From Peromyscus leucopus (lineage: Eukaryota > Chordata > Mammalia > Rodentia > Cricetidae), in contig NC_051071.1 of the NCBI RefSeq assembly GCF_004664715.2, positions 28,575,661-28,639,660 of the forward strand: a stretch of DNA of 64,000 nucleotides, in the 5' to 3' direction. A model generated the notes under the pieces. It did no database searches, was not told the origin of the DNA, and saw nothing but the letters and a program-made list of their open reading frames with translations. The position numbers and the translations under genes were made by a program. Shown here in pieces: positions 2,086 through 38,463 of the stretch (position 1 is the stretch's first letter; the number at the start of each line of letters is the position of its first letter).

Positions 2086-2845
2086 TGTAATGGGGATATT
2101 CGCATCAAATCACTCTCCTTGGGGCTCAGGAAACCTAGTGGGAGTGAAGGCAGAAAGATTGTAAGAGCCAAGGGAGATGGAGGACACCAAGGAAATGAGA
2201 CCTGAAAAGAGCAGACTGACACATATGAACTCGCAGAGACTGTGGCAGCGTGTACAAGGAGATGTCTGTGCCAAATGGGGTCCCAGAACTGAAAGAAATG
2301 GACACATAATGCTATCCCTAACCCAGAAGCTGTCTCTAATTGATAACCACATGCAAATAAAAAATTAGTACTCTGCAATAAAGTCTCACAAGTGTGAGAT
2401 ACAAATCACACTTAAGGGCAGACCCCATGCCCATTAGTAGATACAAAACAAACTCACTGGCATCTTTGGATTTTTTTTTTTGTTTGTTTGTTTCATAATA
2501 TTATCAAGGCAGTTTTTTGTTGTTGTTTGGTTTTTAACATCATAGGTCCGTTGCATATATTACGGTTCCTGGCTTTGTGTTTTATAGGATTCATGTGTAT
2601 ATGAACTTGGGTGTTTCTGTATTTTTATGTTTCTGAAGCTTTTTCTTTGATTTCTTTCCTTCTGTTTATTTTATTTTTGTGCTTCACCCTATTCTGTTTT
2701 GTTTGTTTTATTACCATTTTTTAGATGACTGTTTGCTTTCTAATGAGAAACAGAAAAGGTATGGCTTCAGATGGGAGAGGGAGGTAGGGAAGATCCTGGA
2801 GAAGTTGGGGAAGCAGAATATGATGCATGAAAAAAAAAAAACCCT

Positions 2846-2997
2846 TTTTTTTGTTGTTTTTTGTTTTTTGTTTTTCGAGACAGGGTTTCTCTGTGTAGCT
2901 TTGCGCCTTTCCTGGAACTCAATTTGGAGACCAGGCTGGCCTCGAACTCACAGAGATCCGCCTGCCTCTGCCTCCCGAGTGCTGGGATTAAAGGCGT

Positions 2998-3035
<38 letters not shown>

Positions 3036-3040
3036 CGGCA
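2846..3040 (-). mobile_element. B1 SINE, antisense, with internal CCG expansion
   Basis: The minus-strand B1 begins as GCCGGGCGGC and ends in a T-rich (A-rich in sense) tail at 2846-2870. On the plus strand, GAGACAGGGTTTCTCTGTGT and GTGCTGGGATTAAAGGCGTG are intact. The element is young. The position where B1 normally has a few CCACCAC-type triplets is replaced by 11 perfect CCG units at 3001-3033. Confidence 0.92.
3001..3033. repeat. (CCG)11 trinucleotide repeat inside B1
   Basis: Eleven uninterrupted CCG units are followed by CCCGGC. It evidently arose by slippage within the GC-rich end of the SINE. Triplets of this composition are prone to length change and to methylation. Confidence 0.95.
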
Positions 3041-3075
3041 AAAAACCCTATTTTTAATGAAAGAAAAGTAGAAAA

Positions 3076-25330: not shown

Positions 25331-25715
25331 GTGTGGCCTGGAGATCAAGTGTGCTGGAGAGCACCCAGGGGAGAGTTCTGGAGGCCAAGTGTGCTAGAGA
25401 CTAGCCAGGAAAGAGTTCTGGAGGCCAAAAGACCACCCCAGGAGGGTTCTGGAGATCAAATGTGCTAGAGACCATCAAGGGGAGAGTTTTGGAGGCCAAG
25501 GGACTACCCATGGGAGAGTTTTGGAGGTGAAGTGTCCTAGAGACTACCAAGGGAAGAATTCTGAAGATCAAGTGTGCTAGTAACCACCAAAGGTAGAGTT
25601 CTGGAGGCCAAGAGACTACCCAGGGAAGAGTTCTGGAGTTCAAGTATGCTTGTGACTGCCCAGAGAAGATTTCTGGAGCCCACACATACTAGAGACTACC
25701 CAGGGGAGAGTTCTG
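25331..25715. repeat. Minisatellite of about ten units, 40/32-bp alternation
   Basis: The anchor GAGTTCTGGAGGCCAAG and variants recur at about 25375, 25415, 25446, 25487, 25519, 25558, 25598, 25630, 25671 and 25710. Spacing is either 39-41 or 31-32 bp. Short units lack a 9-bp GTGTGCTAG-like segment. The 94-codon minus frame across it is a product of the repeat. Confidence 0.92.
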
Positions 25716-26005
25716 GCTCTTTTTTAGTAGACAGGAGTCTAGGAATGTTATCATTGTCCTCTGGTTTCCTCATGCATAAACAAGATTAATGGTAGCAAAG
25801 GCTTGTCAGCTGACATGAAGACTGAAATATTTACTTACCTAATGATTATGGAATTATTACTTCAAAAGTGTTCAATTGTCTATTATTCATGTATTATGCA
25901 TAGATATTTTGGGCAAGGCATTATTTCTCCTGCTAGAAATTCAGAGAAATTAAGGAATTTGTTGAAGTTCACATAGCTATGAACAAAGCTGCTCTAAATC
26001 TCTAA
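25716..26005. other. No recognised feature
   Basis: This is a short AT-rich stretch between the minisatellite and a SINE. Confidence 0.5.
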
Positions 26006-31919: not shown

Positions 31920-32176
31920 TTAAATCTACATGCAGGCTGGCAAAGATTAAACCTATAGGCAGACTAACAGGGGTTAATCCCATAAGCAGTCTATAGGAGT
32001 TAAACCCCTATGCAGTCTATAGGAGTTAAACCCCTATGCAGGCTACAGGGGTGAAACCCCTATGCAGGCTACAGTGGTTAAATCCATATACAGGCTACAG
32101 GGGTTAAATCCATATGCTGGCTACAGGGGTTAAATTCATATGCAAGCTACAGGAGTTAAACATGTATGCAGGCTGA
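31920..32176. repeat. 26-bp minisatellite, ten units, next to HS3ST1 3' end
   Basis: Units of 26-27 bp begin TTAAA and end in GGCTACAGGGG or GTCTATAGGAG. Neighbouring copies differ at a few positions, and outer copies are the most diverged. The array starts about 560 bp past the HS3ST1 stop codon and lies before the distal AATAAA, so it would be transcribed in a long 3' UTR isoform. Confidence 0.95.
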
Positions 32177-32736: not shown

Positions 32737-33718
<982 letters not shown>

Positions 33719-36758: not shown

Positions 36759-37440
36759 TATGTGGTATATGTATATAGACACATATGTACAAATATATAG
36801 AGTACATATATTTATAGCTACCTATATGTTGTACAAATGCCATGGATGTATCTAAGATATGTGCATGTATATTTATGCATATTATATATGTAAACATAGA
36901 ATATACATGCTACTATATGAACACATTTGTATATATAATATATAGGCATACAGTAGCCTTATGTTTCTTGTGCTTTGATAATTCAGACTCCTGGTGATAC
37001 AACCAGAATTACTTGGTCTTTTACTCACAGGAAAGAAAAACATCTCCAAGCTCACATGAACCTGCAAACAGTCTCTGGGCCATCCTGACCTTGACAATGG
37101 GTTTCCAAATAACAAAGAAGAGAGTCTTTTAGTCTTTGCCTTTCATTTCACACATGAGGAGATTCTGAGATGACTGAGTTATAGCCACAGGGAAACTCTG
37201 AGTCTGAAACTTTTGTCCCCTGAGTTCCAGTCTAGTGGTCTGGGTGTTATCATAACTGTCTCCCAAGCAGGTGATCGTGATATATAACAATGATAGTGAT
37301 GGGGGAAGGGTTTAAAAGAAAGACCCAATGTAATAGACTCAACTATAACAATCCTTCAGCTCCAAATTCTAGAAGTCAAATATATGTAGAGTACATTTGG
37401 CACAGTATTAAATCCATTTATTGCTTTTAGGCAGTAGATG
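35931..37440. other. No gene recognised; AT repeat at 36731-36960
   Basis: A (TA)n and TATATG-type low-complexity stretch occupies about 36731-36960. The rest shows nothing recognised. Confidence 0.45.
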
Positions 37441-37627
37441 AGCAACAGGATCTTTACAGCCTATGGAGCCAGGAGTCTATCTCTAGTTTTGAGTTTTGTA
37501 AAAGTGACTTTGTCTCTATGCCTCAGTCTGATCAACTGTGAAATAAGTGTGTTTCAGTCTACCCCAAAATGATTGTTTTGAAGCGTGAATGAAGATGTGT
37601 GTACCAGAGAGAATTACCTAACAGAAA
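37440..37627 (+). mobile_element. MIR element, whose 3' part forms a hairpin arm
   Basis: It has the MIR order: AAAGTGACTTTGTCTCTATG with CCTCAGTCTGATCAACTGTG, then CCCCAAAATGATTGTTTTGA and GTGAATGAAG. The last 43 bases are the left arm of hairpin 1. Confidence 0.5.
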
Positions 37628-37693
37628 ATTTAAAGGACAAATGTGGCTTGTTTCTGTTAGGTAATTCTCTCTGGTACACACTTCTTCATTCAC
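37585..37693. repeat. Long inverted repeat (hairpin 1), 43-bp arms
   Basis: The left arm 37585-37627 and right arm 37651-37693 are reverse complements at 42 of 43 positions. The single mismatch lies 12 bases into the left arm. The loop of 23 nt is 37628-37650. The stem contains CCAGAGAGAATTACCTAACA on the left and its complement on the right. It is one of two adjacent structures. Confidence 0.97.
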
Positions 37694-37699
37694 ATTTAC

Positions 37700-37807
37700 A
37701 ACATGATCTTATTCTGGAACAATGACATTGTGTATACATTGAGAGAAATATGTTTTAAAAAACCCCAATGTATACACAATGTCATTGTTCCAGAATAAAA
37801 TCATGTT
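37700..37807. repeat. Long inverted repeat (hairpin 2), 42-bp arms
   Basis: The left arm 37700-37741 and right arm 37766-37807 are reverse complements at 41 of 42 positions, with a C/T difference 9 bases in. The loop of 24 nt is 37742-37765. It begins 6 bp after hairpin 1 ends and shares no stem sequence with it. Confidence 0.97.
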
Positions 37808-38463
37808 ATAAAATTAATGAGCAATTTTTCAGTATTTTGTAGTAAGACTTGATTATTCAGTGTGTGTCTCTCTCTGTGAGAACAGCAGTCCACTCCAGGG
37901 CCCTGTGGGCCTGGGGTGACTAAGGTGGGTAAGGACAGAGGGGTGGGAAGCTATAGTTCCTCACCTGACACTTTCATAGAGAGGTCCCCTCCCCAGTCAC
38001 AGAGAAAAAGTTCCTCTGCAGGAAAAAGGACAAGAAAGGCAAGCCTAAACTTGCAGGTGACATAAATACATTCATATTCTATCTGTTGATAACTTCATTA
38101 TTCTCCCACAGGAAACAAACCAGGTGACCTTGAACACAGAGGGCTATTTGAAAGCTTGGAGCTGCCAAGGGCACAGACAGAAGATTCCACAGCACCCAGA
38201 CCTGAGGCCAGGCACCCTGGCAAGAACAGTGACAGCAGCCCCAGCTGCCATTGGCACTAGGCTTTGGACTGGCAGCTTCACACATAGCATGCCTGTGGTC
38301 TTGAAAATGAGCCCTCAAGACAACAAGCATTGATACTGGAAAGCTGGAATCAAAGGTATCAGAAGTCTGTCAAGAAAGAGTGAGGAGAGCTAGCCCCCAA
38401 ATGAAATCTGAGCAAATAGACCCAGGGCCTTGCTGTGCCTCTCACTCCTTCACAGTGCCTGAA
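37808..38463. other. No recognised feature
   Basis: This is intronic sequence without a named repeat. The short frames on both strands at 38079-38333 are not supported. Confidence 0.45.

Follow-up and report, generated by a model that had tools for sequence, protein, structure and literature searches.

Two abutting near-perfect hairpins near HS3ST1 in Peromyscus leucopus as a probable trace of local reverse-complement copying

How do two hairpins that show no clear likeness in sequence, and yet have almost the same geometry, come to lie back to back in mammalian DNA? The question is raised by a short unit in the genome of Peromyscus leucopus, which was analysed within a 64-kb window of NC_051071.1 (GCF_004664715.2); the window is the whole stretch of DNA examined and all coordinates are window positions. 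The best reading of the unit is that it stems from a local reverse-complement copying accident, apparently a recent one, and that it is neither a gene nor a mobile element. The probability of local copying, whether by snap-back synthesis or by template switching, is put at about 0.8 for the two histories together.

The original prediction had named HS3ST1 as the host gene, and this is borne out by a minus-strand open reading frame whose best solved-structure matches are the 3-OST-1 entries 1vkj, 3uan and 1zrh.

32737..33705, minus strand: HS3ST1 coding exon, matching 3-OST-1 structures; open reading frame as mechanically listed, start codon provisional

The hairpin pair lies about 3.9 kb upstream of this reading frame on the gene's strand, and is presumably within the intron that precedes the coding exon.

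Several tandem repeats occur elsewhere in the window. A minisatellite at 31947-32174 (8.7 copies of a 26-bp unit) lies about 560 bp past the stop end of the HS3ST1 reading frame on the gene's strand and is possibly inside the 3' UTR or just beyond it. A second, degenerate minisatellite at 25338-25716 has overlapping periods of about 40, 71-72 and 112 bp. A pure CGC run of 12.3 copies (2999-3035) would read as poly-alanine within the mechanically listed reading frame 2679-3071, and the stretch ahead of it looks SINE-like.

Anatomy and folding of the hairpin pair

The features on which the argument depends are as follows; those with no strand given were assigned none.

37483..37584, plus strand: 3' portion of an old MIR SINE lying directly against A (local alignment and nhmmer)
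37585..37627, plus strand: left arm of hairpin 1 (A), 42/43 complementary to 37651-37693; probably ancestral MIR sequence (weak match)
37628..37650: loop 1 (L1), 23 nt, defined from the sequence
37651..37693: right arm of hairpin 1 (A'), putatively the new inverted copy of A
37694: joint between the hairpins, 1 nt; with the 42-nt arm of hairpin 2 the joint is 6 nt (37694-37699)
37695..37741: left arm of hairpin 2 (B), 45/47 complementary to 37766-37812
37742..37765: loop 2 (L2), 24 nt, defined from the sequence
37766..37812: right arm of hairpin 2 (B'), 45/47 complementary to 37695-37741
37651..37741: predicted single insertion of 91 bp (A', 1 nt and B) in the two-ended break model, deduced from the geometry

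The unit as a whole (37585-37812, 228 bp) has the order A-L1-A'-(1 nt)-B-L2-B'. Hairpin 1 has 42 of its 43 arm positions paired, with one mismatch, around a loop of 23 nt; the core of hairpin 2 (37700-37741/37766-37807) has 41 of 42 paired, again with one mismatch, around a loop of 24 nt. Two back-to-back near-perfect hairpins, as originally described, are thus real. The 6-bp gap reported between them holds for the 42-nt arm of hairpin 2. This stem extends outwards to 37695-37741/37766-37812 (45/47 paired, two mismatches), and with the 47-nt arm the gap is the single nucleotide 37694.

Every centre in the 64 kb was scanned for ungapped stems with loops of up to 120 nt (match +1, mismatch -3, cut 18). 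Three stems were found: hairpin 1, hairpin 2 and one 18-nt stem in an AT/GT simple repeat. A chance origin is ruled out by pairing at 42/43 and 45/47 positions.

The two stems were then compared with each other. The score of A with B was equalled by 33 of 1000 mononucleotide shuffles, and for A against the reverse complement of B the figure was 333 of 1000, so there is no clear likeness between the stems. The loops gave the same result (310 of 1000 shuffles as high for L1 against L2; 33 of 1000 with one loop reverse-complemented). Duplication of one hairpin into the other is therefore unsupported.

Two short motifs were seen at the edges of the stems. The joint 37688-37699 reads ATTCAC-ATTTAC, a near tandem 6-mer in which ATTTAC, the 6-nt gap, is similar to the ATTCAC before it; it could have come from polymerase slippage at the joint, an explanation that competes with TTTAC being second-stem sequence. 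TCATT, near the end of A' (37686-37690), recurs reverse-complemented as AATGA just to the right of hairpin 2 (37816-37820), where it sits one base off the stem register. The two may represent joint microhomology, or chance.

Short inverted repeats are a known type of artefact, and an assembly or library fold-back chimaera was considered as an explanation. It is improbable here: there are three mismatches in total across the arms, two different stems abut, and base counts show a window without any N.

Stable folding of the minus-strand RNA, which had been predicted, was confirmed by computation. If transcribed in the HS3ST1 sense, hairpin 1 folds at -70.2 kcal/mol (z -14.7) and hairpin 2 at -73.8 kcal/mol (z -17.1), with none of 200 shuffles as stable for either stem, and a 271-nt stretch folds at -149.7 kcal/mol. 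On this strand the two mismatches of hairpin 2 are G-U pairs, so that 50 pairs follow one another without interruption. These properties are what favours a functional hairpin RNA, a pri-miRNA or a source of long hairpin siRNA, kept paired by selection; the stems would be putative Drosha/Dicer substrates. Strong folding follows from the arms alone, however, and strong folds are predicted for the opposite strand as well (-71.0 and -60.8 kcal/mol), so that stability is no evidence of function; nor are two G-U pairs evidence of selection. Rfam gave no match at gathering score anywhere in the 64-kb window, and ARAGORN, run with bacterial settings, gave no tRNA in it. A functional RNA is accordingly regarded as very improbable, and the double hairpin is most probably a neutral scar.

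The flanking MIR and mobile-element explanations

The direction of copying within hairpin 1 depends on which arm was there first, and the only guide is the old MIR on its left. An MIR consensus was used for the alignments and for nhmmer. Local alignment matched it to 37483-37658 with a score of 81, the maximum of 200 shuffled controls being 58. On removal of A' together with all sequence beyond 37765 the score was 78.5, and it was still 72 without the left arm; most of it therefore comes from sequence to the left of A. With the same consensus nhmmer found 37497-37592 (E 0.0045), and a profile built from the consensus and three other MIR copies of the window gave E 0.13 and stopped at 37593. 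The first left arm had been described as apparently the end of an old MIR. What can be upheld is that a MIR adjoins the arm on its left; the nhmmer match runs only 8 nt into it.

Whether the element continues further was assessed by anchoring the MIR continuation at 37585. A followed by L1 scored 21.5, against 7.5 for L1 without A, 8.0 for B, 4.5 for A', 8.5 for L2-B' and 10.5 for the sequence after the hairpins. An anchored extension of 75 nt, which includes 9 nt of A', was equalled by 4 of 300 mononucleotide shuffles and by 2 of 300 window positions. In a stricter test A and L1 to 37650 were equalled by 38 of 2000 dinucleotide shuffles and by 46 of 3994 window placements (its own included), and A alone by 69 of 2000 and 61 of 3994. 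L1 alone matched the MIR tail no better than shuffles (481 of 2000 shuffles and 574 of 3994 placements as high). A MIR running through arm and loop to 37650 is thus suggestive only. As A with L1 gives the best continuation of the MIR, A is likelier to be native than A', and the weak MIR match suggests a polarity in which A would be ancestral and A' the copy. For hairpin 2 no test distinguishes B from B' as the older arm.

The sequence around the unit was also searched for signs of transposition. For five definitions of the unit, the longest exact flanking direct repeat (shift of up to 2) was 1-2 nt. No second copy of the hairpins was found in the 64-kb window, where the best match besides the hairpins themselves had E 0.019 over 25 nt. 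The 801-bp region 37300-38100 had no match in plasmid or phage sequences; a 25-mer of A had no exact match in a collection of viral contigs and a 23-mer of B none in one of genome contigs. The collections searched are viral, bacterial, archaeal and plasmid, and are uninformative on copies in the host genome. A paired MITE-like insertion, one of the origins first proposed, is not supported, given this lack of a flanking direct repeat longer than 2 nt and of another copy in the window, together with the lack of clear similarity between the stems.

The other mobile form to be considered is of the ODIRA type: a hairpin-capped (dumbbell) DNA circle that has integrated, with a 91-bp duplex corresponding to B'-A. 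Hairpin-capped extrachromosomal DNA has been proposed as a source of inverted copy number variants (PMC10766183), and a dumbbell, once linearised, would read A-L1-A'-B-L2-B', which is the order observed. Against it, A seems to continue the MIR on its left, so that B' would not have been beside A there; this disfavours the dumbbell with the weight that the weak MIR match allows. Mobile-element origins, of either form, are taken to be highly unlikely.

Histories of local copying

The arms are near identical within each pair, the stems show no clear likeness, and the ungapped scan of the window found no other such stem beyond the simple repeat. This indicates that the copying was local; and two unrelated stems, each with near-identical arms, require two local reverse-complement copyings. 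The lack of a target-site duplication and of a second copy in the window was also counted in favour of a local copying accident. A single complex event with strand switching, the first origin offered in the original prediction, belongs to the best-supported class.

In the preferred reading, which is held at somewhat less than even odds, one double-strand break fell between the two loops and both of its 3' ends folded back before being joined. The ancestor would have been A-L1-L2-B', broken between L1 and L2. Each 3' end would then have looped back onto its own strand, paired with it over a few bases and served as primer for a polymerase that copied about 43-47 nt: the left end would have made A' from A across loop 1 and the right end B from B' across loop 2, B being new and B' ancestral. 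With almost direct joining of the extended ends, the net change would be a single insert of about 91 bp (37651-37741) that separates L1 from L2. The middle 91 bp do consist of inverted copies of both flanks, and would be the inserted part. A candidate process is snap-back (stem-loop) synthesis of the theta-mediated or synthesis-dependent end-joining type; foldback synthesis by Pol delta, followed by end joining, is an alternative. We infer the recency, the break, the polymerase and the choice of new arms from an anatomy that is itself observed.

The geometry fits this two-ended break in several respects. The supposed break and the limit of copying are 66 nt apart on the left (A and L1), and on the right 66 nt (L2 and the 42-nt B') or, with the 47-nt arm, 71 nt. 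The break would explain the matched geometry, as if the two overhangs had been of similar length. That the new copies abut, 1 or 6 nt apart, is required by a single joined break and not by independent events. The mismatch loads of the hairpins are also alike (1/43 and 2/47), which is compatible with one age. On the other side, the 66/66 equality is limited to the 42-nt arm, the MIR support for A is weak, and the inner arm ends would permit at most about 3-4 nt of priming, which counts against the two-ended break, as does the length of the copied tracts beside those reported for break repair. A more specific form of this reading, in which a germline break had both 3' ends folded back and extended by equal 66-nt tracts, so that the symmetry of the double hairpin records the lengths of the overhangs, is held a little more tentatively still.

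Most of the same facts are accounted for by serial short-range template switching at a replication fork, which is a possible history and almost as likely as the two-ended break. Here the ancestor would have been A-L1-B-L2. The nascent strand, after synthesis of A and L1, would have changed template to read A in reverse, making A'; back on its first template it would have gone on through B and L2 until a second switch produced B', and then have resumed its course. Two insertions would result (37651-37693 and 37766-37812), with B ancestral and B' new. One polymerase may have done all of this, or there may have been two events close in time, hairpin 1 stalling the fork and provoking the second. 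That template-switch mutations are abundant in general speaks for this history. TTT is found at the start of A' (37651-37653) and just after A' (37695-37697), as a short backward return would give. Serial switching also requires the second copy, B', to end at the foot of hairpin 1, which is physically reasonable, as a folded hairpin 1 could have blocked the polymerase there. A template switch can make a perfect hairpin in a single step (PMC8794818). Serial switching needs two long foldbacks, however, where the break needs one joint, and nothing in it makes the loop and tract lengths equal.

Under either history the arms can be used to estimate when the copying took place. Three mismatches in 90 pairs correspond to about 1.7% change per arm if the arms were never corrected. 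Rodent neutral rates serve to date such divergence, and they would make the hairpins a few million years old; correction between the arms would make this estimate misleading.

If both ends of the break did fold back, hairpins that occur in pairs with loops of matched size would serve as a recognisable mark of snap-back repair in the germline, and two-ended foldback scars would form a class of loci in which the genome records the length of resection. The locus is also an illustration of how a single accident could supply an intron with a pair of long perfect RNA stems simultaneously, raw material for new hairpin RNAs.

Comparison with known systems

A literature search at title and abstract level found no mention of paired hairpins of equal geometry, which is no proof of their absence from print.

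Short-range template switching (the four-point model of PMC7954356 and PMC8794818) resembles the present case in making a nearby reverse-complement copy, with a perfect stem possible in one step. In great apes, 4017 significant events were reported over six comparisons; those of the gold-standard set, which are enriched in introns, have copied lengths with a median of 12 nt and a maximum of 128 (PMC7954356). Reconstructed histories have been used to argue that hairpin stems arise by template switching in one step, microRNAs being the favoured case (PMC8794818). A near-identical reverse-complement source within about 100 nt is characteristic of such events, and here the arms are 23 and 24 nt apart and match at 42/43 and 45/47 positions. 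The differences are that two unrelated stems of matched geometry abut in this locus, and that the copies of 43-47 nt are to be set against the great-ape median of 12 and maximum of 128 (PMC7954356).

MITEs and other palindromic DNA transposons share with the locus their hairpin-forming inverted repeats. They differ from it in that this unit has no target-site duplication, no clear similarity between its stems and no second copy in the window.

In theta-mediated end joining (TMEJ) and synthesis-dependent end joining (SD-MMEJ), as in the break proposed here, a 3' end that has turned back and paired over a few bases primes an inverted copy of its flank before joining (PMC11292364). Two terminal base pairs suffice for stem-loop extension by purified human Pol theta, and a reaction in which ends are joined with an insertion made by such extension has been reconstituted (PMC11292364). 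For mammalian cells that paper gives inverted templated insertions of 3-30 bp, and for Drosophila a favoured loop of 6 nt; the copies here are 43-47 nt, the loops are 23-24 nt and both ends are proposed to have folded. As the copied lengths (43 and 42-47 nt) fall outside the 3-30 bp range for mammalian cells (PMC11292364), the hairpin pair is not classed as a member of this group; what is claimed is a similar way of working. Human cells also show templated insertions, with direct or inverted repeats, where breaks or integrated DNA have been joined (PMC5508229).

A further comparison is with yeast, where double-strand breaks gave foldback inverted insertions, mostly of 5-34 bp, through a 41-nt loop (PMC11724301). 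There, too, DNA next to the break is copied in inverted form over a long loop, 41 nt against 23-24 nt here. In the yeast cases one end folds and the other captures it, the two being joined by NHEJ or Alt-EJ, and the insertions are mostly shorter than either arm of this locus (PMC11724301). The copies in this locus are longer than those break-repair examples, and they are paired; the locus is a known kind of mutation in an unusually long, double form.
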